From positions 1-35,951 of the IMG/VR virus record IMGVR_UViG_3300025117_000162: a stretch of 35,951 nt of DNA, one strand, 5' to 3'. The notes beneath the pieces were generated by a model, which searched no databases, was not told the origin of the DNA, and saw nothing but the letters and a program-made list of their open reading frames with translations. Origin of the DNA: a virus. The translations under genes and the position numbers were made by a program. Below, one piece after another: positions 6,351 through 27,425 of this stretch (position 1 is the first letter of the stretch; each line of letters begins with the position of its first letter).

Positions 6351-6377
6351 TTTAATTTTAAAGGCGGGTCCGGGTCT

Positions 6378-6560
6378 GGCGCGGCAAGGTTAGTTTCGGC
6401 AGGCAAGGCCAGTTAAGATTTGGTTTGGCGGGTTATGGCAGGCAAGGTCAGGTGTGTTCTGTCCCGATTTGGCAAGGCAGGCACGGTATGGCGAGGCGAG
6501 GTGTGGCTCGCCACGGCCTGGCGAGGCAGGCAAGGTGAGCAGTGGTTAGGCATGGCGTTG
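6378..6560 (+). repeat. Degenerate G-rich GGCA/AAGG tract
   Basis: The rest of this gap is filled by imperfect short repeats built on GGCAGGCAAGG and GGCGAGG (for example near 6400, 6440, 6475 and 6520). The + strand is strongly G over C. I see no conserved reading frame; the antisense frame through it has no protein-like features. Similar GGCAAGGCATGG-type tracts occur in other phage genomes, from memory, without an agreed function. An origin, recombination or strand-exchange role is possible. Confidence 0.6.
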
Positions 6561-6592
6561 TAAGGACAATAAACTAACAAGGAGGTTTTATC

Positions 6593-8729: not shown

Positions 8730-9020
8730 GTGGACTTAAAACAGTATTTTGAGCGCGATATTTTGCCGCGACCTGTTGGAACTGAGCGGATGCGTAAATG
8801 GGGAATAGCGCGTTTTTTCAGAGCGCTATGGTGTCACTTTGCGCACCATAAGCACCATCAATCTTCCGGCCTACCTGCTGCTGGCGCTCGTCTTTGGCAC
8901 ATTATTAGCTGTTCCAAATGCGGCATATACTACGTTATTTCTACACCTAACAATCCTCAATATTCGTTGTCAATGCCGTGGGAGTCACCAGATAGAACCA
9001 AGCCAAAGTCATGGTTTTAG
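8730..9020 (+). CDS. His/Cys-rich hypothetical protein, 96 aa, GTG start
   Basis: GAGGAGG lies about 7 bases before GTG 8730, which starts [16 protein letters not shown] His-rich stretch ([12 protein letters not shown]) and [13 protein letters not shown] with a C-x2-C pair suggest metal binding. The layout, an H..HH..H cluster followed by LWHI..CS.CG, looks like a conserved small phage protein, but I cannot name it. No membrane segment is evident. The next gene starts 55 bases after its stop. Confidence 0.6.
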
Positions 9021-9075
9021 CCATCGTGCCGCAAGTCGCGGCGAGGTTCATAACGGCTGCAAAGGAGGCGACACA

Positions 9076-9618
9076 ATGAGACTGACACCGGAACAAGAAG
9101 CGAAACTTGGAGCAGAGCGCACTGCCAAGTACAACGCGCACCAAGAATGGATCATGGGCAATGGCGGCAAACGGCTGGATTGGTTCGGGGCCGACCTGTC
9201 CAGAGCCGACCTGTCCGGGGCTAACCTGTCCAGGGCCAACCTGTACGAGGCCAATCTGTACGAGGCCGACCTGTCCGGGGCTAACCTGTCCAGGGCCAAC
9301 CTGTACGAGGCCAACCTGTACGAGGCTAACCTGTACGGGGCCGACCTGTCCAGAGCCAACCTGTACGGGGCTAACCTGTCCAGAGCCAACCTGTCCAGGG
9401 CCAACCATATAATTTCGTGCTACGCCTGCGGGTATCTGGTTTTTGCCTTCTATTTCGACAGCATCACCCACGTAAAGGCGGGGTGCCATACCTTCACGCT
9501 GGCCGAGGCGGAAGCCTACTGGGGCGGGAAGCAGGGCCGTGAAGAGGCCATGGCGGCGCTGCGGTTCATCAGGGAAATGGCGGAGTTGAAGGGGTGGGAA
9601 AAGGAGACGACGGAATGA
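9076..9618 (+). CDS. Pentapeptide-repeat protein, 180 aa
   Basis: AAAGGAGG sits 8 bases before ATG 9076. After a charged N-terminal cap ([20 protein letters not shown]) come about 14 A(D/N)LxX pentapeptides, such as [10 protein letters not shown] and ADLSG, which would form a right-handed quadrilateral beta-helix. A 70-residue globular end follows ([20 protein letters not shown], then [14 protein letters not shown]). Pentapeptide proteins such as Qnr/MfpA mimic DNA, but here the array is short and the role unknown. The C-terminal domain resembles that of other phage repeat proteins. The 15-bp units repeat nearly perfectly in DNA. It ends in an ATGA overlap with the next gene. Confidence 0.8.
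9190..9399 (+). repeat. Fourteen 15-bp tandem units encoding A(D/N)LxX
   Basis: Units based on GCCAACCTGTACGAG and GCCGACCTGTCCAGA run without a break from 9190. Longer blocks of units recur (the [20 protein letters not shown] order appears twice), which suggests block duplication by slippage or recombination. Confidence 0.9.
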
Positions 9619-12239: not shown

Positions 12240-12572
12240 TCACCCCTCGATCTTGGCGATAAGACGCCAAATCTGTTTTTCGATTTCGGCCGGGGGGATC
12301 GCCCCGGTGTCCACGTACCCGGTGTAGATTTTCAAGGCGGTCTCCATTTCCTCAAGGACCTGTTTCTTCGCCCGGAGAATCGCCGCCTTCGTGGCCGTTA
12401 CCGAGGTTTCGGTTTGCGCCAGGTAAGAATCGTATTCCTGGTTGTAGATTCCGAGGAAGAAGGTGGCCTTCTGTTCGGGCGTCCACGACTTGAAGTCTTT
12501 CGTGACCGTCGCGCACCCGGCGGCCATGACGCACAGCATCAAAACCATCCCCAAAACCGCAACTTTTCGCAT
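12240..12572 (-). CDS. Lipoprotein with lipobox, candidate outer spanin-like or lysis protein, 110 aa
   Basis: AAGGAGGATTGCG precedes ATG 12572. A short positively charged start (MRKVAV), a hydrophobic core and MAAGC give a clear type II signal peptide with Cys20 as the lipidated residue. The mature part is helical and about 90 residues (YNQEYDSYLAQTETSVTATK, then LRAKKQVLEEMETALKIYTG). Phage lipoproteins in lysis cassettes are often outer-membrane spanins, but it lacks the Pro-rich character of many, and no inner spanin partner is obvious; the 96-aa TM protein at 13581-13871 is a possible one. Its lipidation would need host signal peptidase II. Confidence 0.65.
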   Translation of the reverse strand: MRKVAVLGMVLMLCVMAAGCATVTKDFKSWTPEQKATFFLGIYNQEYDSYLAQTETSVTATKAAILRAKKQVLEEMETALKIYTGYVDTGAIPPAEIEKQIWRLIAKIEG

Positions 12573-12745: not shown

Positions 12746-13177
12746 TCAGGGCCGGATAAGCAATATTCCTTTTTCCTCTTTGTCGTGATTCCGAACGTCG
12801 AAATGGAACCACGGAATATCCATTTCCAGGCAGGTGATAAAACGGAAGTCCTCATCCCACGGCGTGGCTAAAATATCTCGGCGAATGTCTTCCGGGGAAA
12901 CATCTGCGGGAAGGGCATCCCCGGCCCGGCCGAATTTGTGCTGAGAAAGGGGGACACCCGTTTCCGAGTCGAAGGGCCGGAACCCCGACATGGTGCGCGG
13001 CCCGCCCACGCCCCAATTATTATAGGTCATGCGCCCGTAACGGTTCCGCAGGGCATCGGCGGTCCTGAGCAGCCGGTCGTCGAACATAAGCCAGAGGCTG
13101 CTCCCGCGATGCTTGAACTCGTTGAAAACAGACGGTGGAAGAAATTCGGTAAGTTGGAAGAACTTGGGAATATACAT
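12746..13177 (-). CDS. M15-like peptidase endolysin, 143 aa
   Basis: Carries the zinc-peptidase signatures of the M15 family (D-Ala-D-Ala carboxypeptidase/VanY type): PLSQHKFGRAGD (S-x-H-x3-G-x-A-x-D) and, near the C-terminus, PWFHFDVRN (W-x-H-x-D). It probably cleaves the peptide cross-links of peptidoglycan at lysis. The length suits a single-domain phage endolysin. There is no signal peptide, so release would depend on a holin. ATG 13177 is chosen over GTG 13183 because AAGGTAGG spaces well to it. The 173-base gap after it holds a weak hairpin (CCCGC 12711-12715/GCGGG 12725-12729) and otherwise nothing I can read. Confidence 0.75.
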   Translation of the reverse strand: MYIPKFFQLTEFLPPSVFNEFKHRGSSLWLMFDDRLLRTADALRNRYGRMTYNNWGVGGPRTMSGFRPFDSETGVPLSQHKFGRAGDALPADVSPEDIRRDILATPWDEDFRFITCLEMDIPWFHFDVRNHDKEEKGILLIRP

Positions 13178-13189
13178 GCTCACCTACCT

Positions 13190-13209
13190 TTTTGCTGACG
13201 TTAGCAAAA
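13190..13209 (-). promoter_or_regulatory. Perfect inverted repeat TTTTGCT-N6-AGCAAAA
   Basis: A 7-bp perfect stem with a 6-base loop lies between the 58-aa gene and the endolysin, just upstream of the endolysin ribosome-binding site. Its core GCTAACGTCAGC resembles the core of the larger palindrome at 13426-13455, so both may be hairpins or operators read by one factor. Confidence 0.4.
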
Positions 13210-13212
13210 TGG

Positions 13213-13389
13213 TTAAAGGCTATTCAGATATTCCGTCCCCTCGAAAAACACGTCATCATAACGAGGTTCCCGGAAATTGGCCCTCTCGCGTTCGCGGCGC
13301 ATCCGTTCAAGGTTTTGGACCGCTTGCCGCTCCTTGAACCTGCGGCGAATGTCCGCTATCTTTTCCGAAATTGTTTGTGTCTTTGCCAT
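13213..13389 (-). CDS. Small basic helical protein, 58 aa
   Basis: MAKTQTISEKIADIRRRFKE starts at ATG 13389, with AAAAAGG 6 bases ahead; a longer in-frame start at 13431 has no such site and would cross a palindrome. The product is highly charged, with an Arg-rich helix (RRRFKERQAVQNLERMRRER) and an acidic aromatic end (YDDVFFEGTEYLNSL). It is unrecognised and may bind nucleic acid or a phage protein. It is flanked on both sides by related inverted repeats. Confidence 0.55.
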   Translation of the reverse strand: MAKTQTISEKIADIRRRFKERQAVQNLERMRRERERANFREPRYDDVFFEGTEYLNSL

Positions 13390-13425
13390 GCTATACCTTT
13401 TTCCTGGCGTCACGAAAATGGTCCC

Positions 13426-13455
13426 GATCATTTTGCTGACGCCAGCAATATGATC
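13426..13455 (-). promoter_or_regulatory. 30-bp near-perfect palindrome
   Basis: GATCAT 13426-13431 pairs with ATGATC 13450-13455, and TTGCTG 13433-13438 with CAGCAA 13443-13448, separated by one T-T mismatch and closed by a 4-base loop. On the - strand the 3' arm is followed by GGGACCATTTTCG. It may be a terminator/attenuator or an operator for the genes at 13389-11848. Confidence 0.5.
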
Positions 13456-13580: not shown

Positions 13581-13871
13581 CTATGAAAGCTTGCCCCGAA
13601 TGAAGGCCACGTCTTCCCCGATCTTTGTAAGTTTCGGAGTCAACACCTCGTACACGTGCTCCTCAAGGTCCGCTTGCCGCTCAGCCCGTGAAAGCATGTT
13701 AGCCTGGCATACCGGGTCTGAGCATGCGTTCTCGCGTTTCTCGTTGAAGATGTCCAGGAGCCCTTTGCGCTTAGCCCAGGCCGCCAGGAAGAACAGCGTC
13801 AGAGCCGCCCCGCCAACGGAGCCGCCCGCAATTTTTCCTACCGCCTCGATGGCCTGCAAGGCTTCCTGCAT
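13581..13871 (-). CDS. Single-pass membrane protein, possible lysis-associated, 96 aa
   Basis: The N-terminal helix (MQEALQAIEAVGKIAGGSVG) leads into a hydrophobic segment (GGAALTLFFLAAWAKRKG, about residues 16-36). A charged region with two Cys (ENACSDPVCQANML) follows, then a helical tail (AERQADLEEHVYEVLTPKLT). Membrane anchor plus periplasmic or cytoplasmic coiled-coil suits an inner spanin or holin regulator, and the gene lies at the edge of the lysis region. No family is recognised. The ribosome-binding site (AAAGG, about 8 bases ahead) is weak. Confidence 0.55.
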   Translation of the reverse strand: MQEALQAIEAVGKIAGGSVGGAALTLFFLAAWAKRKGLLDIFNEKRENACSDPVCQANMLSRAERQADLEEHVYEVLTPKLTKIGEDVAFIRGKLS

Positions 13872-13980: not shown

Positions 13981-14988
13981 CTACCAAAGCTGAATTACGT
14001 GCCGCCACGCCCCGCCGGCCGGGGCCGCAGCGGTGTACTTCCACGCGCCGATATCCCAGGGAACCGTGCGCGTGCTCCCGGCGTAGTCGTCGTCGAACGT
14101 GGCGGAAAGGTCGGTGCCTTGCCCGAGAGCAGCCGTGTCCGTGGGGTCAAGGCGGAAATCTCCTCCCGCCGCATTAACGAAAACCACGCCACCATCGTCC
14201 GTGCAGGTGGTCTTTACCCAGGTCCCGCCATCCCATTCGGCCGTGGTCGAGTCTTCGGCTATGCAATTTTTGGCGGTCGGCGAGGCGCCGCCCTGATCCC
14301 AAAAGCCCGTTGCCCCGCCGTAGGATGTATCGTTGTAAAAGGCAGTCCCGCCTTGATAAACACCAAAATTCATGGATTCGCAGTTAGCTGAAATGTTATT
14401 GTATATCTTGCAGTTGGTGCTCATGGCGTAGATGCCGAGACCAAGACCGACACCGGCGCCATTGATGTTGTGAACGTAGTTTCCTACGGCCTTGCAATTC
14501 CCGTCGACCAGAAAGGACCCCTGGGAGAACATGATCCCATAAGCATTCACTCCGTCCGTCGTGCTGGATTCGGTGATATCCAAGTACGCCACGCCGAAGT
14601 ATTGCTCGTAACCCGTGTCCAAGCTATAGACGTTGACTTGGATCACGCCTACGGCCGTCCAGGCGGTGAGCGTGCCGGAATAGTTGAACACTGGCCGGTT
14701 TGTCGGGTCCTCCCCCTGGATCGCCCGGAAACATGTCGAGGTGACCCCGGTCGCTCCGCTTATGGTCACGCGCATGTCGTAGGTTCCGGCCTGCACGGTC
14801 AAAACTTCCCCCGTCCCGGCCAGGTTCTTGGTGGTGGCTACCTCCCATGTCGTGAGGTTTGAGTAGTCGCACCCCGAGGCGCACATTGTCGTCTCGTTAT
14901 AGACGGCCGGCAACACCCAGGCCGATGCCGCCCAGGCCGGACTTGCAGCAAATGCTATAGCAAATGCTATGACAAGTGCTCGTCTCAT
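13981..14988 (-). CDS. Secreted beta-helix-like protein, 335 aa (paralog of 15557-16582)
   Basis: Starts with a textbook Sec signal peptide (MRRALVIAFAIAFAASPAWA, probable cut after AWA). The mature part has a Cys pair near its start (MCASGCDYSNL), a VQAGTYDMRVTISG strand repeat, and many short beta runs with Asn/Ser turns (VGNYVHNINGAG, IYNNISANC, YNDTSYGG, AKNCIAED), typical of a right-handed parallel beta-helix such as those in pectate lyases and tail spikes. The C-terminus reads GDFRLDPTDTAALGQGTD, then WDIGAWKY and a final WRHVIQLW. A related protein lies at 15557-16582, so the pair arose by duplication. The start overlaps the upstream stop (ATGA). No catalytic motif is visible. Confidence 0.75.
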   Translation of the reverse strand: MRRALVIAFAIAFAASPAWAASAWVLPAVYNETTMCASGCDYSNLTTWEVATTKNLAGTGEVLTVQAGTYDMRVTISGATGVTSTCFRAIQGEDPTNRPVFNYSGTLTAWTAVGVIQVNVYSLDTGYEQYFGVAYLDITESSTTDGVNAYGIMFSQGSFLVDGNCKAVGNYVHNINGAGVGLGLGIYAMSTNCKIYNNISANCESMNFGVYQGGTAFYNDTSYGGATGFWDQGGASPTAKNCIAEDSTTAEWDGGTWVKTTCTDDGGVVFVNAAGGDFRLDPTDTAALGQGTDLSATFDDDYAGSTRTVPWDIGAWKYTAAAPAGGAWRHVIQLW

Positions 14989-15545
14989 TTCTGTGTCTCC
15001 GTCCCCGGAAGCCCCGGCTTTGCCGCCGCGGCCTGGTCCGCGCCCTGGTCTGCCACGGCCTTAGTGGCCGTGCTCATGCGCTGGAACTTCTTGTCCGCGA
15101 ACACTTCCGATTTAGCATCAAACCACTTATCGTCCGGATCTCCCACCGGAAGGATGTACCGCCGCTCCCGGACTATCTGCCCCTTGTCGTCAATCTCCGG
15201 GCCTTCCAGGGCATCCGCTTCATGCCGAATCAGACTGTTGATGTGGACGATCTTGAACAGCTTGCCGTCCGTCTCAAGCTTCCCGGTAAAGCCACCCGCT
15301 GGAGCGATCTTCACGATGTCCCCGGCCTTGATGCTGCTTCCAACGTCCTTCACAGCCACCAGGGCGTCGCAGGGCATCGAGGTGGTGTTCCAGCGGTTTA
15401 TCCGGACGTGCAGGGGCTCGGCCGGCCACGCACTGGAAACCTTCCAGAACCCGAACCAGACGACTCCGACCACGATCACCAGGATCGCCCAGGCTGCCGC
15501 TTCCGAGAGCCATGTCCTAACTTTGGGGTCTTCGTTCTTTTCCAT
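14985..15545 (-). CDS. Membrane-anchored S26 (signal peptidase/TraF-like) peptidase candidate, 186 aa
   Basis: AGGAGG lies 8 bases before ATG 15545; a longer in-frame start has no such site and overlaps the upstream gene. Residues 16-34 (AAAWAILVIVVGVVWFGFW) form the single membrane anchor. Then VRINRWNTTSMP places Ser56-Met-Pro exactly as in the signal peptidase I/TraF nucleophile box, followed by SIKAGDIVKIAP. Lys98 (LFKIVHI), about 40 residues on, fits the general base, and ILPVGDPDDKWFDAKS resembles the GD-N-x-x-S-x-D-S-R box with substitutions. By family knowledge it would cleave signal peptides on the periplasmic side. It lies between two genes whose products carry such peptides. A degenerate, inactive homolog is possible. 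Confidence 0.6.
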   Translation of the reverse strand: MEKNEDPKVRTWLSEAAAWAILVIVVGVVWFGFWKVSSAWPAEPLHVRINRWNTTSMPCDALVAVKDVGSSIKAGDIVKIAPAGGFTGKLETDGKLFKIVHINSLIRHEADALEGPEIDDKGQIVRERRYILPVGDPDDKWFDAKSEVFADKKFQRMSTATKAVADQGADQAAAAKPGLPGTETQK

Positions 15546-15556
15546 TGCTTCACCTC

Positions 15557-16582
15557 CTACCACCACTGAATCAGGTGCGGCCATGCTGCTCCGCCCGGTA
15601 TCCATTCGTAAGCCCCGATATCGAAAGCGGCGCCGTAAGGCCGGGTAGTGCCGGCGTAATCGTCCGTGTATATCGCCGATTCATCCGTTCCTTGGTCCTT
15701 GGCCGCCGTGTCGTCTTCCTGCAACCGGAAATCATCGCCTGCCGCATCCACGAATAGGACCGGGGCGTCAACCAGGCAGTCGGTCAGGGCTGTCCACGCT
15801 GCCCCGGAATACGTAAACCCCGGAATCTGACTCTCTTGCGCGATGCAGTTTATTGCGCTGCCCGTGGACGCGCCTACATCTTTGAAAAAATCGCGTTCCG
15901 TTGCGTCATACGACGTGCAATTGTAAAAAACATTGTCGTCATCGGACGTATAAAAATTTGCCAGCTTATTCCTGGCCGCGATACAGTTTATCACTGTATT
16001 TCCGGGGGAGTTCATCCATATGCCGTAGGCCGCGCCGGCGGCCGGCGACGTCACATCATGAACCCAGAGCCCGACGAAGCGACCCTGACCTGCGATCGTC
16101 GTGTAAACCCCGGCGAGGTTGTTGGTCGTTGTCCCCGTATAGGTCACGTCAAAGTCGTACAGACACACCCATTGCTCCGTTACCGGCTCACCATAGTCGG
16201 CGTTGACCTGCAAAACGCCGACGCCAACGAAAAAACCAATCCCGCCTGAGTAGGCTACCAGCGGCCGGTTGGTGCGGCTGGCACCCCGGAACACCCGGTA
16301 GTTTTCCGCGCTGCCGTTTGTCGCGCCCGAGATCGTGACCCTCTCGTCATATGTGCCGAGAGACACCGTGACGACAATGCCGCCCGCCGCGCCCAGGTCA
16401 ACCGTCGTGGTCACTTCCGCGAGCCCGATCGAGGAAAAATCGCACCCGGACGGGCATACGGTATATTCCGTGTAGCTGGCCGGAAAAATCCTGGACGAAG
16501 CCCCCCACGACAACCGGGGACCGGCCACGGCCAGGGCCGACAGGAAGGCGAGAACGGCAAATGATTTCAGGACGCGGGGCAT
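15557..16582 (-). CDS. Secreted beta-helix-like protein, 341 aa (paralog of 13981-14988)
   Basis: Sec signal peptide (MPRVLKSFAVLAFLSALAVA). The mature part starts like its paralog: FPASYTEYTVCPSGCDFSSI, then VSLGTYDERVTISGATNG and NRPLVAYSG. Repeated short strands and Asn-rich turns (VINCIAARNKLANFYTSD, FYNCTSYDA, AINCIAQES) suggest a right-handed beta-helix. The end shares GDDFRLQEDDTAAKDQGTDE, DIGAYEW and PHLIQWW with the paralog. Its first six codons are duplicated at 16744-16762. The start overlaps the 54-aa gene by 16 bases. It is probably exported to the periplasm or surface; a virion or host-modifying role cannot be told apart from sequence. Confidence 0.75.
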   Translation of the reverse strand: MPRVLKSFAVLAFLSALAVAGPRLSWGASSRIFPASYTEYTVCPSGCDFSSIGLAEVTTTVDLGAAGGIVVTVSLGTYDERVTISGATNGSAENYRVFRGASRTNRPLVAYSGGIGFFVGVGVLQVNADYGEPVTEQWVCLYDFDVTYTGTTTNNLAGVYTTIAGQGRFVGLWVHDVTSPAAGAAYGIWMNSPGNTVINCIAARNKLANFYTSDDDNVFYNCTSYDATERDFFKDVGASTGSAINCIAQESQIPGFTYSGAAWTALTDCLVDAPVLFVDAAGDDFRLQEDDTAAKDQGTDESAIYTDDYAGTTRPYGAAFDIGAYEWIPGGAAWPHLIQWW

Positions 16583-16762
16583 GGGGTTTCTTTCAGGGCC
16601 TCCGCCAACTGCTTCATGACGCCCGGACGGGATAGGGCCTCCCTCACGATGGCCTCATCATTGGCATTGGCCAGCTTGAGAATGCGCCGGGCCTCTTGCC
16701 AGACTTCCTCCTCATAGGCTTTATCCGGCATTTCTTTCTCCTTATTTCAGGACGCGGGGCAT
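16564..16762 (-). repeat. 19-bp direct repeats at 16564-16582 and 16744-16762
   Basis: ATTTCAGGACGCGGGGCAT occurs twice exactly, 180 bp apart. On the - strand each copy is ATG CCC CGC GTC CTG AAA T. Copy 16582 begins the beta-helix gene; copy 16762 follows the upstream stop and now reads MPRVLK-stop. This leaves a vestigial start as the scar of an insertion. Confidence 0.95.
16567..16731 (-). CDS. Small helical protein inserted between direct repeats, 54 aa
   Basis: AAGGAG lies 7 bases before ATG 16731. The product is one long helical, charged protein (MPDKAYEEEVWQEARRILKL, then IVREALSRPGVMKQLAEALK) ending CPAS. It is too short for most callers but has a good start and a regular codon pattern. 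Its end overlaps the start of the beta-helix gene. It lies within a 180-bp unit bounded by exact 19-bp copies of that gene's start, so it was probably inserted or duplicated into place. The product is unrecognised. Confidence 0.6.
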   Translation of the reverse strand: MPDKAYEEEVWQEARRILKLANANDEAIVREALSRPGVMKQLAEALKETPCPAS

Positions 16763-16766
16763 CATG

Positions 16767-17240
16767 CTACCTCGGGCAAATGAGCGTCAGGACTTCTGTG
16801 CCGCCCTTGGGAGCGGTTCCGGAATGAATCGTGGTCACGGTAAAGGCCAGGGCGTCGCCTTCCGCCAGGTCGTCATAGGCGGTGTTGATGACGCCATCGG
16901 AAGCATACCATTCATCACCGATGGTCACGCCCGTGGATAAAACCGATACGTCAGACCCGGCCCGCTTCCGCAGCACGTTCATGGTCGTGGTTCCGGTCAC
17001 GCCCTTTTCTGCGACGTGCCCAAGGACATCCACGATGACGCACCCGGCGCAATGTTCCGGAATGGGAATAAATACGGTTTCGCCCGTGGTCGTCATTGCT
17101 GTGTTTTCGCCGGATTGCTCATAGGCCAGAGTCAGGAAACGGTATACCGGGTTCGCCCACGGCCCACGGTCCCATCCACCGGCCATCGCCGTCGAAGCCA
17201 AAACCAGCAGCCCGGCCAAAAGAAAGATCGCGCGTTTCAT
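16767..17240 (-). CDS. Exported protein with Sec signal peptide, 157 aa
   Basis: N-terminal signal peptide MKRAIFLLAGLLVLASTAMA with a probable cut after AMA. The mature region is beta-rich (NPVYRFLTLAYEQS, TMNVLRKRAGSDVSVLSTGV, then DALAFTVTTIHSGTAPKG) with two Cys in HCAGCVIVDVLG and one at the end (LICPR). It resembles small phage beta-sandwich proteins, such as DUF-type decoration or receptor-binding accessory proteins, but I cannot name the family. The start is 10 bases from the upstream gene's stop with a GGGGG site ahead; it belongs to the exported-protein operon. Confidence 0.65.
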   Translation of the reverse strand: MKRAIFLLAGLLVLASTAMAGGWDRGPWANPVYRFLTLAYEQSGENTAMTTTGETVFIPIPEHCAGCVIVDVLGHVAEKGVTGTTTMNVLRKRAGSDVSVLSTGVTIGDEWYASDGVINTAYDDLAEGDALAFTVTTIHSGTAPKGGTEVLTLICPR

Positions 17241-17250
17241 GGCAGCCCCC

Positions 17251-17682
17251 TTACTTCACCAAAAGGTAACAGGTCGGAGTGATGGCGTTCGCATCGCCAG
17301 TTTCTTCAATGATAAACTTGATATATTTTGAAAAGTGAGGACCAAATTGCGTGTATTGAGTCCCGGAAGCGGACGTTATCCCGGAAAAGACAATGCCCCC
17401 ACCTTCGGGCTCAACGTAATTGGTCCCGTCGTAGCTGGCCTGGTAGTAGAGTTTTCCCGTTCCATCCCCTAAGACAGAAAACTGCGTCCCAAAATAGCCC
17501 ACGTCCTGCGGGGTGATGGTGATGACGGTTGTGGTCGCGCTGTAGGCATGCCCTGCCGCGATCGCCGTATCTCCCGCCATGAGCGTGTGATAGGTCCAGG
17601 AGTTTTCTCCTGCCAGGACCGGAGCGGTGAAAATACAGGCCAGGATTACGATTGCCGAAAGGATAAGCCGAAGCTTTTTCAT
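17251..17682 (-). CDS. Exported protein with Sec signal peptide, 143 aa
   Basis: GGAGG lies 6 bases before ATG 17682. MKKLRLILSAIVILACIFTA then PVLA gives a signal peptide with an LA cut site. The mature part is beta-rich: TTVITITPQDVGYFGTQFSV, GKLYYQASYDGTNYV, and a C-terminal YIKFIIEETGDANAITPTCY. The ..YYQASYDGTNYV.. phrase is common in phage structural and tail-associated proteins of unknown fold. It is the first gene after the giant polyvalent protein and opens the exported cluster. Whether it joins the virion or is exported is unknown. Confidence 0.65.
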   Translation of the reverse strand: MKKLRLILSAIVILACIFTAPVLAGENSWTYHTLMAGDTAIAAGHAYSATTTVITITPQDVGYFGTQFSVLGDGTGKLYYQASYDGTNYVEPEGGGIVFSGITSASGTQYTQFGPHFSKYIKFIIEETGDANAITPTCYLLVK

Positions 17683-17738: not shown

Positions 17739-20700
17739 TTATTGCCCGTACTCGTTAAATCCGTAAGCCTCGCCAATATCTTGTTGAAATTGCCGCATAT
17801 ATTTTGGTTTCCGCTCGGCGTATGCCTTTGCACGATTTTTCTGCCTGCGAAGGATGGCTGAACGCAGGGCTTTGCCTGTAATCATTACGCCGCCATCCTT
17901 TTTTTGCTCCGCGTTGTAGGTTGCCAGGTCAGCCAAAACCGCCTGTCGGTCTTCCTGTGTCTTGGCGTGAATGAAAAGCTCCGCGAAGTCCGCAATCTTT
18001 TCGGCCCTGCGCTTCTGTTCCCTGGTTGCCAATTCCTGCGCCGACCTGGTTTCCGCCTCTCTGGTAGGCGTGAATCCCAAAGCCTTATAAACCTTTTCGC
18101 CGGGTGTGTACTCAATGGGCGGAGTGCCTTCAATGCCGGTTCCGCCTTCCAAGCCAAAGGCTATGTAGGGGTTACGAATCATGTCAGGCATCGCCATGAA
18201 GATACCGGCGGCCACGTCGCCGCGCTTGATGAGTTTGTAGCCACCCTGAACGCGCTTGTAGATGGTCTTGCCGGTCTGGAATCCTACCGGCAGGTCAATG
18301 ATGTCCGTTCCCTGGATGCGCCAAGACAGGTCGCTTCCAAAGACAGCCGGGATGCCGCGTGACGTTGCACGGGCAAAGTTTTTCCCGGTATTTTCATAAA
18401 GCCACTTCTCCCAATCGTCGGACGGGTCCGTAAAAAGCCGATAAATGAATCCTGCCAGCCACGCAAAGGGAAGGGCCGTCAACCCTCCAAGGGCCATGGT
18501 CCAGGCCAAATGAGAGCCAAGCACCTTCATGGTCATGGCACGGTCTTCCGTGGGCCACGCGGAAATGGCTTCCTGAACCCGGTGCTTCAGGAAAACCAGA
18601 TTGTTCACAGGATAGGTCATAAACGTGTAAAGCACGTTCCCAAAAGTACCGGCCTTGCGGACGACTTCCGGGCGATTGGTCCGGCCATAAAGAAAATGGG
18701 ACGCAAGAACGACCTGCTTTGCCACCAGCTTAACCGGGTCTTCCGCCTTAGAGTCTCTTGCCCGCCGATAACCGGCCAAGAAAGAACTCATGCGGTTGAG
18801 GCTTTCCGCGCCCGTGAACCCGGCATAAAGCAGCCGGCCGATGTCTGACGTGTAGCTTTCATGGACCTTGTTGGCGTGTATGCCGGTCACTTCCCCGAAG
18901 TAACCAGGGTCCAGATAGCCGCGTTCGTAGGCTTCCCGGATGGCATTGGTTTCGTCTTCCGTAATCCATTTTGATGCAGTCTTGAAAAGGGGCCGCCCGG
19001 CCTTCTTGTCCGCGAACCATGCGGCCATAACGTCCTTGTTGGCTTTGGCAAGCTGCTTTTCGGCGTTGCCCTTTGCATCGGGGATGGACCTAAGCATGGC
19101 TACGCCGTGGGTCCAATTCTGTGTCATGTTCAGGGCAGCAGCCGACACGTCCCCCGCCAGGAAGAAAGCCCCCGCAAGACGTTTGAACGCCCCGGCTTCG
19201 CCTTCGGCCGGCCCAAGCATGTCGGAGACGTATTCCCGCGCCGACCTCCACATGTTAGGCTTCTTGGCGGGGTCTATCAGCTTCATGGACTGCGCGAAGG
19301 CGTGCGCCGCCCTGCCCTTGGCGACGTAGGCGTTGAACCCCGTCAGGTATTCAGCCAGGACGTTATCAAGGTCCGTGCGGTATCCCAACGTCCCCTTGCG
19401 CGGGATAAGGTGCCGGGCAAAGCCCTTGGCCTTGTAAAGCTCGTCAACGTGCTTCGACAGGGCATTCCGGATGTCGGTCAACTGTTCCATCTCGGCCGGG
19501 GAAACCGTGTCCTTGAACCCGGCCATAAGCGCGTTCACGCTGGAATCGAGGATACCGTTAATTATGTCCAGCCGGGCTCCCTCGAAAAGCTCAACGGGAA
19601 GCTCCCGCGAACGGATGGGCTTTATTTTCTTTTCCTTCGCCATCGCCGCTATTTTCTCAGTGCTCCACCCAAGACGGTCCCGGATCACCTGAATGGCCGC
19701 ACGTTCAGCCGCATGCCTCCGCGCTTTCTTGGTGACGTGCAGCGTGCCCCGGATGGTCGGGACTTCAAAGAGGTATTCTTTCTTGGCGTCCCCCTCGCCT
19801 TCAACCACCTTGACAAGCCATTCACTTTCCCATTGATGCGGCACGTAGGCCCGGCGCTGAAAGGCCCAATCCGCCACGGCCTGAACAGCCTCAATCTGTT
19901 TTTCGGTAAGACCTAATTCGTTAAGGGATGTCGCCATCTTGGCGTTCGCGGCGTCTTCCGTTGTGCCGCTGGAAAGGGCGGTGTTTCTTCGGTTCACTAT
20001 CCGGCGCACTTCAACGACCTCAAATTCAGTCAACGCGCCTTCCCCGATGTCGGTAATGATGTTCCCCATAATGTGGTCAAGTTTCTGCTTCAAGACCTTC
20101 CGGATGCGCCAGAAAGCAAACCGTTCCTCGTCGGATAAGCCAAACCGTTCACCGGAAAGGGTGGCGTTCGAGAAGAATTTGTTCTCCCGGTCCCCTTCCA
20201 GTAAGGCGAAATCCACCTTTTTTCGGCTCTTGGCGGGAAGCTCAAAGTACGGCTTGGTCGTCTCCCTGTCCCGGATGCTCATCTGGTTTGCGTCACCGTT
20301 CCGGGCGATTTGGTTTTCAAGCAGGTTGTCCATTTCCCAATGGTCGTGCGCCAGGTCCACCATGGTCTGAAAGCGCCGGGTGAATTTGTTCAAGTCGTCC
20401 GGGTCGCTGGTAGGCAGTTCAATGCCGGTTTCTTCAAAGACGCGGGACAGGTCAATCTTGCCGTCCGGGGTCTTGTAGCGGTTCATGAAGTTGGTAACAA
20501 GACCCTGGCTGTACTGGTCGGCCATGTCGGAAAGCTGGCGGGTCTTCTGCTTGGTCTGAAACAGCGGCATGCCTTCCCGTAGGGCCTTGGAACGCATCTC
20601 GGGGGTGATGGGGAGGGCGTGGGCCGTGGTGTTGGCAATCTCCATACTGCCGACTTTCGCCCCACCCCATTCCTTCTTGTTGAAAAACTTGTTCACGGCC

Positions 20701-23700
20701 GCGGGCAGGATTTTGTCGTAAAAACCCTCGAATCCTTCCTTCCTCGGCATGGAAACACCGGAGGGTTCATCTTGCATTCTGGCCCACAGCTTCTTCGCCA
20801 GGGCGCCGGCGTCCTGGCCCTCGGTCAAAATCGGTTTGATGGCCTTGGTAAGTTCCGCTTCGGAGCCGACTGCGGCGGAATTCTCAGGGTTTAGGCCCTG
20901 GGACTCAGCTTCGGCTTCAAGGTCAATGCCGTCCGCCTCCCCTCCCACCTGAGACTTGGCTTCAACCCAGAATTTACGGGGAGCATCTTTAAATTCAAGG
21001 TTATCAGCCGGTATCTTCCAGTTTTTCGCAATCCGTTCCAACTCTACCTGCTGGTCTATCTTGGCAAATGCTTCCTGGGTCCAGGAGCCTAATTTACGAA
21101 TGTTGCGATACATGCCACCGCTCACCGAAGGCTTGCCCTCCTTGACCATGGCATCAACGAACTTGCCCGATGCCCGGTCTTCCTTCCATTCGATACGCTC
21201 TGTCCCCCACCGCTGGGTATGCACATCTCCTGGCGTCCAAGCCACCATATCAAAGCCGTTCTCCGCCGCGTAGCGCACCATGCGCTTCATGGCGAGAAGG
21301 CTCCAGGAAGAAGAAGCCTTGAATGGGGCGTCGGGGACTCCGCGACCTTCTCGATCATTCACAATAGCGTTATACCAATCCATATCCTCGGGCGACCACT
21401 CGCCAATTGAATGACGCTCAAGTTCTTCTTTTCGTGCCATTTCTTCGTCAGAAAGCCCTTTGTATCCTTCCTTCCTCCCCTTCTGGTGCCAGTCACTCTG
21501 CACCTCCTCAATGAACAGCACCCGCTCGCCGTTCGGGCCGGTGCGCTCGTTGAAGCGGACGTGAGCAAGGACGTTGGGCTTGTCCCAGTGAGAAGAACGA
21601 AAATTTTCTTTTCTATTGACTTTGCGTAAGCCTTTGTCAATTAAAGAATTGTATCTGTCCTTGGAAATGTCAAGTATTGCGCCCTCTGTCGGAACAGGCG
21701 CGATATGTGTATCTTCCCACCATTCCTCAAAAGATGGGGCATAATTGGGTTTCTCCGGCAGCGTCAGTAGCAGTTCCTTGTAGTTCTCGCCGCCGGGGAG
21801 CTGGTACTGGCCGAATTTGGTATTTCCAACCCCACGCAGTAGATGAGCATAATCTCTGTCTATTGTATTGAGAATTACGCTTTGCGCATCCTGCTTGTTC
21901 TCGCTCCCCAAAAATTCTCCATCCTGGTATATATCCCAGGTTTCACCGTTGTCATGGCTTTCAGCGTATATATCCTCCAGGTCGGACCATTGCATTTTAA
22001 GGATATGCGTTCCAGATTCATTGGTATCGTTCCAAATGGAAATATCAGAAAGTTTAGCCCCTGGCTCGCCAGTTTTCACCACTTCCTGCACGTCAACCGC
22101 GTTTTCATCCAGCCAGTCCAGCACATCCTCCTTGCTCACCTTGCCAACCTGCTTGTTCAACCAGCCCTCGATGCCCATCCAATCGAGTTCTTCCTGCTTG
22201 ATGCCTGGCGTCTTTTTGATGCGAGCTGCGAGGTCTTTGGCGGGCATGGCCTTGAAATCCATGGCCTCGATGGCGCGGACCAAGGCGCTGTACCAGCGTT
22301 GGGAGGTGTTGGAGTAGTCCGCGCCTTCCGTCGCTTCCGCTGTGACCTCTGGCACCCTTCCAGCCAGTTTTCCACTCTCCATGTCCCGAACCACGCCCCG
22401 GGCCGTCTGGTGAATCATGTTCACGATGCCGTCAATGAAGTCGGCTATTTTTTGCATGACGGCCCGCACCGGAGACGAAAGCCGGTCAAACTCCCGAGTC
22501 CGAAGGGCCTCCTCCATGAACCTGGCGCGGTCTTCTACTCCAGCCAAAAGGGACAATGGAGCACGCTTCCCGGCCGCGTCGTATGCCGACTGGAAGGGAA
22601 GCTTCCCGTCCTTGCGAAGCTTCCTGATTTCCGTGGAAAGAGCCTGCTGGTTGGCCTTGTTGACGAAGCCGTACCTCTCCAAGAAATGATACGTCTCATG
22701 CGCGGCGGTCCACTTGTCGGCCACGCCGCGAACCAGGCGGATGGTGTCGCCCTTGAACTCGCCGGCCACCACCTCGCCGGCCATGGCCCTGCGGCCCCGG
22801 TTGGCGGTAAAGGCTATCTCATCCGGCGTGATAGAGTCCACGGACTCCACCGTCAGGGAAGGCCCGGAGCGGTGTTGCAGCCAAATCTTGCCCTTGCCCG
22901 CGGTCCCCATGGTCCACCCGGAACGTGCCGGGAAGAACTGGCGCACGTCGGCGGCCGGGATGTCGGCCATGCGGTTGGAAGTCTCACGGGCGAGCCGGGT
23001 TGAAAACTCGGCGGACTCGGCTTCGGCTTCGGCTTCGGCTTCCTTTTTTGCTTCCTCAATCGCGTCCGACTCGGCCTTCGCTTGTTGCACCTTTCTATTT
23101 TCCTCGGAGTCTTTCGTTTTCTCTGCAAATGTCTCGCTGATGGCTTTGTTCCTGGTTGTTACTTCCTGCTTGCCTTCGTACAGCCGATTGTAAGACTCCA
23201 CCCATTCGGAAGGGAACTCGCTCGTGTTACCGATATCATAGGGCTTTAGCATCATGGCGGCCCCCACTACCTCCCCCTTGTCCTTGAAAAAGACCATGGG
23301 CTGGACGGTTTCCTCCGTAGCCGGGCTTATAAAGACTTTCGCATCTGGGTACATGGTCAAGATGCTATCTGCATACTGGGCCTGTATCGCGTAGTGCTGG
23401 CCGGACTTGCTTTCTACGTGAGCCACAACCATTTTGTCGTTTGCATCATTCCCAATGTAAGCTACGCCGCGAATCTGAGCCGGTTCAAACCCGGCGAGTC
23501 TTGGTTTTATGATGTCTTCCTGAAATTTTTTATCAAATTCTTTGCCCTGCACCTGGTTACTATCCTTAGGAACCACCACTCCGCTCTTTGGCGCACGGAT
23601 AACGTATCCATTACTGTGAATCCAAATATCGCCTATGTTTGCGGTTGCTTTGTCGCCGATGAAAAGCCCCTCTTTGCGGGGACTATACGGGTTGTAATAC

Positions 23701-26700
23701 CATCCAGCAAAGCCGCTCGGGCGCTTTTTTGGCGCATAAGATGGCGTAGCCTTTTTTTTCAATGGTACTAAAGGCTTGGTGGTGGTTTCTGGGAAAGATT
23801 GTGCTCTCTTCTTAAAATCCAGAAGCGACTTTTTGGTGTTCGGTACGGTAAACGTTCCGTCGCCAGGGACTTCAATTGTCACTGTGCCAATTTCTTTAAA
23901 CCATCTGGCAAAAGCCTCATCATATATAACATTCACTTCTTTTTCGGTTTTGCCCCTTGTGTCTTCGATTGTTGGCCTCTCAGGCTCAACGTCTGGCGCG
24001 GCTTTCGCGGCCCTGTCAATTTCCGCCAAGAGGAAGCTTTTTTGTTCTTTGCTGGTAAGTGCCTTAGCCTCTTTGGCAGGCATAGGCACCGTGACCTTCA
24101 CCCCTTCCGGTGTCGGCTTGACCACGGGGGTGGGCTTAGCCACAACGGACGGCACTTCTTTGACAGCGGGTGATGGCGGTTCTTCCTTGGCGGCAGGTTT
24201 GGGCGGTTCGGCGGCCGGGGGCTCTGCGGGCCTTTCCTTCGTCTTGGCTTTTTCCTTCGGCTCCTGCGCCTTTTCTTCCTTTGCCTGTGCCTTCTGCTCC
24301 TGTTCCTTCTCGACTTTGGCTTTTTTCTTGGCTTCCTTCAGGAAAAATTCCGCCTCGGTTCCTTCGGCAATCCTGGCTATGCGATCCATGTCGCCGGAAA
24401 CAATAGCATCTTGAAATTCTTTGCGCAGCCGACGAGCCGTTTCGATATACCTCGGCACTGCATCTTGAATGGCAGAAAGGGTTTCTCGCCATTTTATCCA
24501 TCTTTTTGCAGTCTTTTTCCCAAAAAGCTTTTCAGCGATGGAATCATCCCATACATGACCTGGGAAAATAGTTTGCTTTACAAACGCCGCCTCCGGTGTC
24601 TTGCCACTGCCTCCTTCAAAAGCATCCATAATTTCGGCATCCGTAATTTTTTGCCCGGTATGCCTGGATGCCCCAGAAATTTGGTGCAGGGTGTACCCGG
24701 AAAATCCACGGCTCAAAACCAAAGCTGATTTCAATTCCCCGGTTTCATCAATGGCAATTCCACCAGGTCCGCGAATGACGACCGCGTTGACCATCCCGCG
24801 CTTCAGGTCTAATGCGCTTAAAGCTCTGGCACTATCTTTAATCGTGCCTTCGGGCGTTTTTTCGGCTGCTATTTCTTCCTGTAAGCCCTTCCGAATTTGC
24901 GTAGAAATTCTGTCTCGCTTGCCCTTCAGCGCCGCAAGTTTATCCCGGCGTTCTTTGCGGAAATCGCGCAAAGCATTTTCAACGTCAGCGGGGCCGGCCT
25001 CCACCAAACCAAAGCGATCCTTGCCTTCGGCCGTGGTAGCCGCTTCTTTAGTCGTGGCTTTATAGGCCTTTTCCCCGGCGGCATCAGGATTTTTTTCGCC
25101 ATTTATCCGCGCCAATTCATAGGCGCGTTGAGCGTTTTCAAGAGCGATATTTTCAACCGATGGTGTTTCCGCTCCCGTCTTGGCGGACTCGGCAGATTTT
25201 TTATACATCGCCCGGCCTTGATCTTCTCGGTACCTACCGCCCGCTTTCGCCCATGGTTCATCAGCAAATTCGGACACGGCCCGGCCTAATGTCATGGTTG
25301 GGTCGGGTTGGAATGACTCTGTTAAACGGTTGCTTACGGCTCTGGCTTCGTCGGCGGCAACACCAAAGCGCCTCATTATAAAGGCGTCCAAGTCGCCCTT
25401 GGTCGTCATCTTTGAATGCGCCAGACGCAACGGCTTTGCGGCATTGTCTTCCGCGTATCTGCGGTCAACAGCAAGCGCGGCGGATTTCCATTGCCCCGCG
25501 ACTGTTAACATTTTATCGAAATCTGGCAAAGGCGCGGGCTGAACGGTCTCTCCGCTCGGCACGGTCCTTGACGGAGCGATCCTCATGCCGCCAGGGGACG
25601 GCGGAGCCGTGACAGGGATTTCTTGCGCGGGCGCGGGCGTAGGCACAATCGTTTGAACCGGCTGCTGCGCCTGGGCTACTGGTTCGGGCTGAACCGGTTG
25701 AGCTGGCTCAGGCTGTACAACCACTTCGGGAGCCGGTATCCGGATAGGCTCTACGGCTGCCGCGTCCTGGCCTTCTATGACCGCCGTGGGGGGCTTGACT
25801 TCTTCCGGCAGGGTTTCCGTTGCCGGGGCCACCGTTGGGGCCGCTACGGCCTTCACAGGAAGCGCTATGCCCGCTTCCTCAAGCCTTTTCTTGATGGCCT
25901 CAAGGCTTTTCTTCACCTTCGCGTTTTCGGGGTTCTTCTCGGCAAAGGCTGCAAGCGTCACGTACCGGCCAAGAAGGGCTTGCGCGTTTACAGGTTCCTT
26001 TTTGGGGGGCTCTGCGGGCTGCTCAGGCTCTACAGGGACCTTCTCCGGCTCGGCAAGGGCAACGGCAGGGGTCTCCGGCTTTGCAGCCTCTTGCACCCGC
26101 ACAGGCTGCTCAGGCGCGACTTCTGCGGCCGGGACGCCCTTGGGCTCGTTCGCCATCCTTGCCTTTTCCCTGGTGACAATCTCCGCGCTGAGTTCTTCCA
26201 GCACACCGGGAAGGCCAGGATATTTGTCCCCCCGCTTCTTGGCGATGTCTTCCGCTGTGGCATAAGCCGCCGCGAGGGCCTTGTCAGGAACGTCGGAAAG
26301 CCTGCCTTCCTGGGTCATGCCCGCCAGTAAGCGGACTTTGCGTGGCTCGTCAACCGTGCGTTCCCACACCTTCACGCCGGCCATGGTGCCGCCGCCCATG
26401 AGGGCCGTCACAAGGACCGTCTGCGGGGCTACCTGTGCAAGCGCATCCGTCAGGTCTTCCAGGCTGGTAAACGACGGGGCCTTCTCCGGTCCAATAGGCG
26501 TTCCGGCCGTAGCCTGTTCCTGGCCTATCTGCGTAATGGTTTCCGTAGCAAGTTCTTCACCGAAGGTTCCCGCGAGTTTTGCCAAGACCCTCGTAGCAAG
26601 GCTCTTGCCAAGCATCTTTTTCAGCGGCGTGGTCAAGGTCTTGAAAGCTATGCCGCCGCCTACGGCCTCGGGAATGGCTTCCCATAGCCCGTAGCTGGTT

Positions 26701-27425
26701 GCCTTGGCGGAAAAGTCTTCTTTGAGAGCGTTTTCTTCCTCGATGGTCAACGGAGCGCCTGCGGTTGAGGAGAGCTTTTCCTCATTCTTGGCTTCCAAGA
26801 ATGCCTGCATGATGTCATTCGACGCCATGCGGTAAGCTGTCGCGCCCGATGCTGCCATACCTGTGCCGTAGGCCAAAGCCGTACCGCCGCCCGGAAGCGG
26901 AGCCGCAAGTTGCGTTGCCGCGCCAGCGCCAAGGCCAGCGCCCGCCGAAACAGCGGAAAACCCAAGGTTCGGGACTACCTGAGCAACGTCTGTAACCTTG
27001 ATGCCGGGAAGAAAATTCCGGTCCCCATATTTTGACCGCACGTCTTCCACGAACGCACGTTCATTTTCTTTTTGTCCGGCAATGAAGCGGTCCATCCATC
27101 CTTGGTCGGCAACGGAAGCGCCTTCCTGCCCCTGAATGGCCTGGCCGGTCCTGGCCGCAATGGCACCAGGAAGAAGGGGAAGACTCCGGCCAAAAGTTTT
27201 CAACCCGCCAAAAAATCCGCCGCCTTCATCCTCAACTGGTCTTTGGCCTGCCGCCATTTGACGGGCAAGTCGGCCTTCTTCCGCCTTGATTTCGGCCATG
27301 AGTTCCGAAGGCGTCTGGCCGGGCCGGAGAGGGTAAACCCCTGGGGTAGAAGGCGCGACCGGCTGCTGCGCCTCTGTCTTGCTTGCCCGCTCGAGCATGA
27401 ACCGTCTGATTTCATCGTTGTTCAT
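17739..27425 (-). CDS. Giant polyvalent/internal virion protein with zincin motif, 3228 aa
   Basis: Large polyvalent proteins are carried in some phage and conjugative-element particles and enter the recipient. Order along the chain: an Ala/Gly-rich hydrophobic N-terminal region (about 100-330: PGAIAARTGQ, VSAGAGLGAGAAT, VLVTALMGGGTM); Pro/Glu/Ala linkers (about 425-640); a Lys/Glu/Ala coiled part (1030-1110); an ISPATEETVQPMVFF domain (about 1350); an HExxH metallopeptidase motif (AHETYHFLE, about 1576); an NVLAHVRFNERTG...EEVQSDWHQ domain (about 1955-1980) typical of phage polyvalent proteins; and a C-terminal LPD38-like region with NMTQNWTHGVAMLRS, TFMTYPVNNLVFLKHR and a membrane segment (about 2975-3000). 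It ends RQFQQDIGEAYGFNEYGQ. It likely helps DNA ejection and takeover. Confidence 0.8.
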   Translation of the reverse strand: MNNDEIRRFMLERASKTEAQQPVAPSTPGVYPLRPGQTPSELMAEIKAEEGRLARQMAAGQRPVEDEGGGFFGGLKTFGRSLPLLPGAIAARTGQAIQGQEGASVADQGWMDRFIAGQKENERAFVEDVRSKYGDRNFLPGIKVTDVAQVVPNLGFSAVSAGAGLGAGAATQLAAPLPGGGTALAYGTGMAASGATAYRMASNDIMQAFLEAKNEEKLSSTAGAPLTIEEENALKEDFSAKATSYGLWEAIPEAVGGGIAFKTLTTPLKKMLGKSLATRVLAKLAGTFGEELATETITQIGQEQATAGTPIGPEKAPSFTSLEDLTDALAQVAPQTVLVTALMGGGTMAGVKVWERTVDEPRKVRLLAGMTQEGRLSDVPDKALAAAYATAEDIAKKRGDKYPGLPGVLEELSAEIVTREKARMANEPKGVPAAEVAPEQPVRVQEAAKPETPAVALAEPEKVPVEPEQPAEPPKKEPVNAQALLGRYVTLAAFAEKNPENAKVKKSLEAIKKRLEEAGIALPVKAVAAPTVAPATETLPEEVKPPTAVIEGQDAAAVEPIRIPAPEVVVQPEPAQPVQPEPVAQAQQPVQTIVPTPAPAQEIPVTAPPSPGGMRIAPSRTVPSGETVQPAPLPDFDKMLTVAGQWKSAALAVDRRYAEDNAAKPLRLAHSKMTTKGDLDAFIMRRFGVAADEARAVSNRLTESFQPDPTMTLGRAVSEFADEPWAKAGGRYREDQGRAMYKKSAESAKTGAETPSVENIALENAQRAYELARINGEKNPDAAGEKAYKATTKEAATTAEGKDRFGLVEAGPADVENALRDFRKERRDKLAALKGKRDRISTQIRKGLQEEIAAEKTPEGTIKDSARALSALDLKRGMVNAVVIRGPGGIAIDETGELKSALVLSRGFSGYTLHQISGASRHTGQKITDAEIMDAFEGGSGKTPEAAFVKQTIFPGHVWDDSIAEKLFGKKTAKRWIKWRETLSAIQDAVPRYIETARRLRKEFQDAIVSGDMDRIARIAEGTEAEFFLKEAKKKAKVEKEQEQKAQAKEEKAQEPKEKAKTKERPAEPPAAEPPKPAAKEEPPSPAVKEVPSVVAKPTPVVKPTPEGVKVTVPMPAKEAKALTSKEQKSFLLAEIDRAAKAAPDVEPERPTIEDTRGKTEKEVNVIYDEAFARWFKEIGTVTIEVPGDGTFTVPNTKKSLLDFKKRAQSFPETTTKPLVPLKKKATPSYAPKKRPSGFAGWYYNPYSPRKEGLFIGDKATANIGDIWIHSNGYVIRAPKSGVVVPKDSNQVQGKEFDKKFQEDIIKPRLAGFEPAQIRGVAYIGNDANDKMVVAHVESKSGQHYAIQAQYADSILTMYPDAKVFISPATEETVQPMVFFKDKGEVVGAAMMLKPYDIGNTSEFPSEWVESYNRLYEGKQEVTTRNKAISETFAEKTKDSEENRKVQQAKAESDAIEEAKKEAEAEAEAESAEFSTRLARETSNRMADIPAADVRQFFPARSGWTMGTAGKGKIWLQHRSGPSLTVESVDSITPDEIAFTANRGRRAMAGEVVAGEFKGDTIRLVRGVADKWTAAHETYHFLERYGFVNKANQQALSTEIRKLRKDGKLPFQSAYDAAGKRAPLSLLAGVEDRARFMEEALRTREFDRLSSPVRAVMQKIADFIDGIVNMIHQTARGVVRDMESGKLAGRVPEVTAEATEGADYSNTSQRWYSALVRAIEAMDFKAMPAKDLAARIKKTPGIKQEELDWMGIEGWLNKQVGKVSKEDVLDWLDENAVDVQEVVKTGEPGAKLSDISIWNDTNESGTHILKMQWSDLEDIYAESHDNGETWDIYQDGEFLGSENKQDAQSVILNTIDRDYAHLLRGVGNTKFGQYQLPGGENYKELLLTLPEKPNYAPSFEEWWEDTHIAPVPTEGAILDISKDRYNSLIDKGLRKVNRKENFRSSHWDKPNVLAHVRFNERTGPNGERVLFIEEVQSDWHQKGRKEGYKGLSDEEMARKEELERHSIGEWSPEDMDWYNAIVNDREGRGVPDAPFKASSSWSLLAMKRMVRYAAENGFDMVAWTPGDVHTQRWGTERIEWKEDRASGKFVDAMVKEGKPSVSGGMYRNIRKLGSWTQEAFAKIDQQVELERIAKNWKIPADNLEFKDAPRKFWVEAKSQVGGEADGIDLEAEAESQGLNPENSAAVGSEAELTKAIKPILTEGQDAGALAKKLWARMQDEPSGVSMPRKEGFEGFYDKILPAAVNKFFNKKEWGGAKVGSMEIANTTAHALPITPEMRSKALREGMPLFQTKQKTRQLSDMADQYSQGLVTNFMNRYKTPDGKIDLSRVFEETGIELPTSDPDDLNKFTRRFQTMVDLAHDHWEMDNLLENQIARNGDANQMSIRDRETTKPYFELPAKSRKKVDFALLEGDRENKFFSNATLSGERFGLSDEERFAFWRIRKVLKQKLDHIMGNIITDIGEGALTEFEVVEVRRIVNRRNTALSSGTTEDAANAKMATSLNELGLTEKQIEAVQAVADWAFQRRAYVPHQWESEWLVKVVEGEGDAKKEYLFEVPTIRGTLHVTKKARRHAAERAAIQVIRDRLGWSTEKIAAMAKEKKIKPIRSRELPVELFEGARLDIINGILDSSVNALMAGFKDTVSPAEMEQLTDIRNALSKHVDELYKAKGFARHLIPRKGTLGYRTDLDNVLAEYLTGFNAYVAKGRAAHAFAQSMKLIDPAKKPNMWRSAREYVSDMLGPAEGEAGAFKRLAGAFFLAGDVSAAALNMTQNWTHGVAMLRSIPDAKGNAEKQLAKANKDVMAAWFADKKAGRPLFKTASKWITEDETNAIREAYERGYLDPGYFGEVTGIHANKVHESYTSDIGRLLYAGFTGAESLNRMSSFLAGYRRARDSKAEDPVKLVAKQVVLASHFLYGRTNRPEVVRKAGTFGNVLYTFMTYPVNNLVFLKHRVQEAISAWPTEDRAMTMKVLGSHLAWTMALGGLTALPFAWLAGFIYRLFTDPSDDWEKWLYENTGKNFARATSRGIPAVFGSDLSWRIQGTDIIDLPVGFQTGKTIYKRVQGGYKLIKRGDVAAGIFMAMPDMIRNPYIAFGLEGGTGIEGTPPIEYTPGEKVYKALGFTPTREAETRSAQELATREQKRRAEKIADFAELFIHAKTQEDRQAVLADLATYNAEQKKDGGVMITGKALRSAILRRQKNRAKAYAERKPKYMRQFQQDIGEAYGFNEYGQ

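Follow-up and report, generated by a model that had tools for sequence, protein, structure and literature searches.

A five-gene late module and its signal-bearing products

The window analyzed here is IMG/VR record IMGVR_UViG_3300025117_000162, a stretch of 35,951 bases that represents a podovirus-like virus contig and is possibly a fragment. Our subject is a module of five adjacent late genes between positions 13,981 and 17,682. A first-pass annotation made from the sequence alone had proposed that four of the products carry Sec signal peptides, that beta-helix proteins are among them, and that the fifth product resembles an S26 signal peptidase. All five open reading frames (ORFs) indeed lie at the positions proposed for them; they are on the minus strand, co-directional, and tightly packed. 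The products, together with a small ORF that interrupts the series, are as follows.

17251..17682, minus strand: SP1, 143 amino acids; predicted Sec signal peptide (residues 1-24) followed by a short domain
16767..17240, minus strand: SP2, 157 amino acids; predicted Sec signal peptide (about residues 1-20) and a fiber-tip domain (residues ~51-151)
16567..16731, minus strand: small ORF, 54 amino acids, flanked on both sides by exact 19-bp copies of the BH1 gene start
15557..16582, minus strand: BH1, 341 amino acids; predicted Sec signal peptide and a parallel beta-helix, with a choice-of-anchor Q motif near the C terminus
14985..15545, minus strand: membrane protein, 186 amino acids; N-terminal membrane helix (residues ~14-37), then a region of ~150 residues predicted to be periplasmic
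13981..14988, minus strand: BH2, 335 amino acids; predicted Sec signal peptide and a beta-helix

The BH1 stop codon falls just ahead of the ribosome-binding site of the membrane-protein gene, whose own stop codon overlaps the start of BH2.

The predicted Sec signals on the four neighboring products agree with what had been proposed, with a basic n-region, a hydrophobic core, and an AxA-type site recognizable in each. Cleavage is predicted between MKKLRLILSAIVILACIFTAPVLA and GEN, MKRAIFLLAGLLVLASTAMA and GGW, MPRVLKSFAVLAFLSALAVAGPRLSWG and ASS, and MRRALVIAFAIAFAASPAWA and ASA. When 399 six-frame ORFs of the window were scanned with a consensus heuristic of our own (not SignalP), the top scores belonged to the four module proteins and to a lipoprotein encoded at 12240-12572. 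Comparator phage loci each contained at most one signal-peptide-like reading frame, and several contained none. Note that BH1 is removed from the list by a ribosome-site filter, because only a distant GGAGG precedes its start.

These products could be ordinary virion proteins whose hydrophobic N termini merely resemble signal peptides. Chance resemblance of this kind does occur on the contig: the signal-like N terminus of a 1475-amino-acid ORF was rejected because the start at 34842 had been called too far upstream, 34764, after GGGGGAAGG, being the likely one, and single cases therefore need care. However, the module presents four cases in consecutive genes, three of which have a good or coupled start. 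The signal is also retained in both beta-helix paralogs and is missing from homologous domains elsewhere, and we regard chance resemblance as very improbable.

A further signal-like N terminus was seen in another phage contig (L002, positions 6065-6658), where a 197-amino-acid protein with a Sec-like start (MKKTIVVLLVLFGVFLCSTVVNS) is encoded in an apparent virion gene cluster and is possibly a parallel case.

The main new result concerns the domains that follow the signals. Judged by homology, these are fiber-tip or tailspike-like domains from which the virion-anchoring part is absent, with a Sec signal in its place. Of the four signal-bearing products, at least three contain domains found in the fiber-like or virion-cluster proteins of other phages. 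Because tailed phages assemble in the cytoplasm, fiber domains with Sec signals are unexpected. The oddity is underlined by a survey of phage-encoded target proteins of diversity-generating retroelements, hypervariable proteins of which many have a C-type-lectin fold: these were reported to lack signal peptides, unlike their surface-displayed bacterial counterparts (PMC6199706).

Residues 51-151 of SP2 (~100 amino acids) share 52-54% identity with the C-terminal end of fiber-like proteins that lack a signal and are encoded on other IMG/VR contigs. These relatives are either 259-304 amino acids long, with a LTNKTLTTPTIGD fiber-type motif, or 742 amino acids long, with the tip domain as the C-terminal end. 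Their genes adjoin virion genes, one neighbor being a phrog_511 member (E 7e-108). In SP2 itself, only a linker of ~30 residues separates the signal from the tip domain, and the N-terminal virion-binding domain is absent. For SP1, a match in a 484-kb phage (E 0.2) was rejected as chance because it falls in an 824-amino-acid tail-sheath-like protein that has no signal.

The beta-helix assignment is borne out by matches to family models and by a phage homolog. BH1 matches Pfam Beta_helix at 7.5e-5, which is below the cut-off, the tail fiber family phrog_18512 at 2.8e-4, and NF041518, a bacterial choice-of-anchor Q model, above the cut-off. BH1 and BH2 are paralogs with 43% identity, and BH2 is 37% identical over 292 amino acids to a signal-less 350-amino-acid beta-helix protein found in two other phage contigs (G001 and G002), in one of which a virion-structural PHROG match lies nearby. 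The first residues of this relative already belong to the body domain, and the 360-amino-acid open frame is too short to accommodate a signal. A profile built from the three beta-helix proteins gave the K1 lyase 7w1c as its best PDB match, a weak one (E 0.012); an AlphaFold model of BH2 had a predicted local distance difference test (pLDDT) score of 31 and was too poor for a fold search. In both BH1 and BH2 the beta-helix starts right behind the signal, with no N-terminal virion-binding domain.

Both beta-helix proteins carry an N-terminal CxSGC cysteine pair and SP2 carries a CAGC pair, whereas the signal-less relatives have no cysteine at the corresponding places. These extra pairs fit folding in an oxidizing compartment, such as the periplasm. 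We drew nothing from total cysteine content (2.1%, compared with 0.4% for the other late proteins), given that the beta-helix relative without a signal is rich in cysteine too.

The first codons of BH1 are duplicated on either side of the 54-amino-acid ORF as an exact 19-bp direct repeat (ATGCCCCGCGTCCTGAAAT, minus strand) at 16564-16582 and 16744-16762. This layout resembles the outcome of an insertion or a duplication; a small gene might have entered the BH1 start.

The membrane protein and the S26 family

The start of the membrane-protein gene is taken to be 15545, as in the first-pass annotation and instead of the 15605 given in the ORF list, because GGAGG lies just upstream of it. The proposed membrane anchor corresponds to the single predicted N-terminal helix, and the residues that had suggested a signal peptidase are located as described: Ser56-Met-Pro58, Lys98, and GDPDDKWFDAK at 135-145, to which GDIV at 75-78 can be added. 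If these motifs are taken at face value, the locus would be a dedicated export module, in which a phage S26 signal peptidase of the TraF or LepB type matures the four neighboring proteins. The order of transmembrane helix, SxP, GDIV, Lys, and FDxK matches that of S26 proteins, and the spacing of GDxxDxxxDxK is the same as that of GDNRDNSADSR in LepB. With a custom profile built from 13 diverse plasmid TraF peptidases, the 186-amino-acid protein scored 4.0 bits, the best among the ORFs of the window and a value equaled by 7 of the 1446 scored shuffles. A profile-profile comparison (hhalign) gave a P value of 0.0009 and a probability of 23%.

However, membership in the S26 family was not upheld. 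The protein matched nothing in Pfam or NCBIfam, and searches of the window with PF10502 and PF00717 (limits E 10 and E 1) returned zero matches while detecting the controls. On the same TraF profile, the distantly related LepB of E. coli scores 32.7 bits, owing to its SxDSRYxG box, and left-out TraF proteins score 111-195 bits. Pairwise alignments evaluated against shuffles reached a Z of at least 3 for 2 of 14 S26 proteins and fell below zero for LepB.

The individual boxes are also uneven. NTTSMPCDAL supplies Ser56 and Pro58 of an SxP-type box, with an N-S spacing that is one residue short; the invariant Gly that follows SxP in TraF is absent. The GDxV box is present. Lys98 lies in LFKIV, which recalls the LxKxV context, but the downstream GD or PGD is absent and no aligner put Lys98 at the conserved position. 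In place of SxD[SG]R[YF]xG, the box most diagnostic for S26, KWFDAKSEVF keeps the Asp and has Lys for Arg, and the Ser, Tyr, and Gly are missing.

The motifs were, moreover, chosen after the sequence had been seen. The same applies to an ordered S26-box regular expression, which matched 0 of 20,000 shuffles and was given no weight because it was written with the protein in view and recovers 7 of the 13 real TraF proteins but not LepB. A single-sequence AlphaFold model of the protein (pLDDT 45) was too poor to place Ser56 relative to Lys98 or to support a fold search. Nor would a phage peptidase be required for signals like these four, which resemble those of ordinary LepB substrates. We consider the dedicated export module quite unlikely, and S26 membership of the 186-amino-acid protein is not established; it may carry an S26-like domain that is highly divergent or inactive.

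Alternatively, the membrane protein might act in inner-membrane superinfection exclusion in the manner of P22 SieA, and the exported neighbors would be envelope-modifying cargo of lysogenic conversion. A single predicted helix with periplasm-facing topology would suit this role, as would the placement of the gene between ejection-protein genes and spike-like genes. However, defense-system models and PHROG gave no match of the protein to any known exclusion or defense protein, and no integrase was seen in the window. This explanation strikes us as improbable.

Late-gene setting of the module

Early genes occupy the plus strand up to ~12 kb and include recombination functions (an AAA_23 ATPase, a RecE-like exonuclease, and a RecT-like protein whose relatives occur in phages from many hosts). 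Late genes run on the minus strand from the right end. Among them are an SU10-type adaptor (PF24175, E 1e-15) and a long protein that has a lectin-like segment and a C-terminal part similar to a 'phage stabilization protein'. Three proteins that are internal-virion-like by position and size come next, followed by a protein of 3,228 amino acids; head genes were not seen in the window. The module is bounded by the 3,228-amino-acid protein upstream and by the lysis cassette downstream.

17739..27425, minus strand: polyvalent, DarB-like virion protein, 3228 amino acids; upstream boundary of the module
13581..13871, minus strand: holin-like protein, 96 amino acids, with one hydrophobic segment; holin-like from position and shape
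12746..13183, minus strand: endolysin-like protein (phrog_894 endolysin, E 2.5e-12); the lysis cassette that bounds the module starts with it
12240..12572, minus strand: lipoprotein, 110 amino acids, lipobox MAAGC; downstream of the endolysin

The C-terminal ~550 amino acids of the 3,228-amino-acid protein are related to large DarB-like/PLxRFG proteins of F116, H66, PBC5, and Skulduggery; for the H66 relative, the annotation states that mass spectrometry detected it in virions. The DarB-like gene of Skulduggery and of H66 is directly followed by lysis genes, whereas in the window the five-gene module stands in between. The holin-like protein had no family match in Pfam and PHROG searches. The 110-amino-acid lipoprotein, likewise without a match in family-model searches, is perhaps an outer-membrane spanin or an exclusion lipoprotein.

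Several further features of the window were recorded. Between 17739 and 29806, the polyvalent protein and the two internal virion proteins that precede it contain zero cysteine, compared with ~2% in the exported-type proteins. A near-palindromic repeat (TTTTGCTGACGTTAGCAAAATGGT-like) is present in three copies, at 13185-13213, 13394-13422, and 13426-13454, which flank a 72-amino-acid ORF just upstream of the endolysin. The left contig end (positions 1-80) is a short tandem repeat of GGGGGCACGGCCACGGCAGGCGAC. Two repeat-fold proteins are encoded in the early region (7668-8183 and 8839-9618), one with a GATVGD-type hexapeptide run that is left-handed beta-helix-like and the other a pentapeptide-repeat protein (PF00805, E 3e-26).

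Possible roles and comparison with known systems

The reading we favor, and to which we would assign about an even chance, is that the phage encodes fiber-tip or tailspike-like proteins that are exported by the host and act at the envelope. It sharpens the first-pass idea of an exported envelope- or surface-modifying layer by naming fiber-tip or tailspike-like domains as the probable components. We count in its favor that the module has ejection-type virion genes on one side and lysis genes on the other. Under this proposal, the late operon joins tip or spike domains directly to Sec signal peptides without a virion-anchoring part, and late in infection the four proteins would pass through host SecYEG. 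Host signal peptidase I (LepB) would cleave the signals, and the proteins would fold in the periplasm. They would then act on the host envelope or surface, or outside the cell, most likely as soluble proteins that bind (or cleave) receptors or glycans. By masking or altering a receptor they could stop superinfection, or they could keep progeny from sticking to lysis debris. The 186-amino-acid protein would be an inner-membrane partner facing the periplasm and might serve as a Sie-like block, as a factor for folding or holding proteins, or as a highly divergent protease of the S26 type. More specifically, and more tentatively, the products may be free Sec-exported receptor-binding decoys or envelope-editing spikes that have exchanged a virion anchor for a signal and are served by a membrane-bound periplasmic helper of their own.

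Several observations weigh against action at the envelope. Scans of viral contigs, genome contigs, and phage and plasmid collections, which were sensitive to close relatives only, found nothing closely related to the module as a whole and returned only single-domain matches; therefore, nothing shows conservation or selection of the module as a unit. SP1 had no significant relative in the contig and phage collections searched. The window contains no clear other fiber gene, and the module shares the late position of the tailspike gene of P22-like phages, as would suit a virion role; in those phages the tailspike gene, gene 9, is found downstream of ejection gene 16 (PMC10883804).

The last two points favor the main and strongest rival, which we nonetheless hold to be unlikely. 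According to it, the module proteins are the tailspikes or fibers of the phage itself, exported to the periplasm and joining tail-less particles only at cell lysis. Their domains are homologous to fiber and spike domains, the weak match to K1 lyase included, and P22 tailspikes are able to attach in vitro to particles that are already complete. However, such spikes would be expected to carry the N-terminal virion-binding domain that is absent here, where the beta-helix lies directly behind the signal. To our knowledge, no tailed phage builds its tail from exported spikes, and literature searches returned none that does so via export.

If the proteins are exported to act at the envelope, receptor-binding parts of a phage would work away from the particle and could in this way mask receptors or exclude superinfecting phages. 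The combination would then be a searchable signature in other phages: a signal peptide joined to a fiber-tip domain, encoded between ejection and lysis genes. If the proteins end on the virion instead, the phage would be completing its tail outside the cytoplasm, no less a surprise.

Among known systems, TraF and signal peptidase I of the S26 family share with the 186-amino-acid protein one N-terminal helix followed by SxP, GDxV, Lys, and D-x-K in order; they differ in that no family model matches the phage protein and that key residues of its last two boxes are missing. P22 SieA, which is encoded in the region between the ejection and tailspike genes, offers an analogy as a phage inner-membrane protein near ejection-protein genes. 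SieA blocks injection by P22-like phages (PMC10883804).

The choice-of-anchor Q beta-helix proteins of bacteria (NF041518) have a signal peptide, a beta-helix, and an FRL...DIGAYE-type C-terminal motif in common with BH1. In contrast to them, BH1 is encoded in a phage late operon and ends in a W-rich C-terminal tail with no known sorting signal.

Podovirus beta-helix tailspikes and fibers (P22 gp9 type; K1 lyase 7w1c) resemble the module proteins in their parallel beta-helix and in their place after ejection-protein genes, and a C-terminal motif is common to a module protein and a phage protein. Sequence similarity to them is weak, as the E value above indicates, and the module has a Sec signal in place of the virion-binding N-terminal domain. 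Podovirus tailspikes are made without a signal and assembled in the cytoplasm, whereas the module proteins carry a predicted one. The same difference separates SP2 from its nearest relatives, the fiber-like proteins of contigs L028, L029, and L034 (LTNKTLT motif, C-terminal VTIGDEWYA...IHSGTAP tip). In those proteins the shared tip ends a signal-less chain of 259-742 amino acids, whereas in SP2 it stands alone behind a signal.

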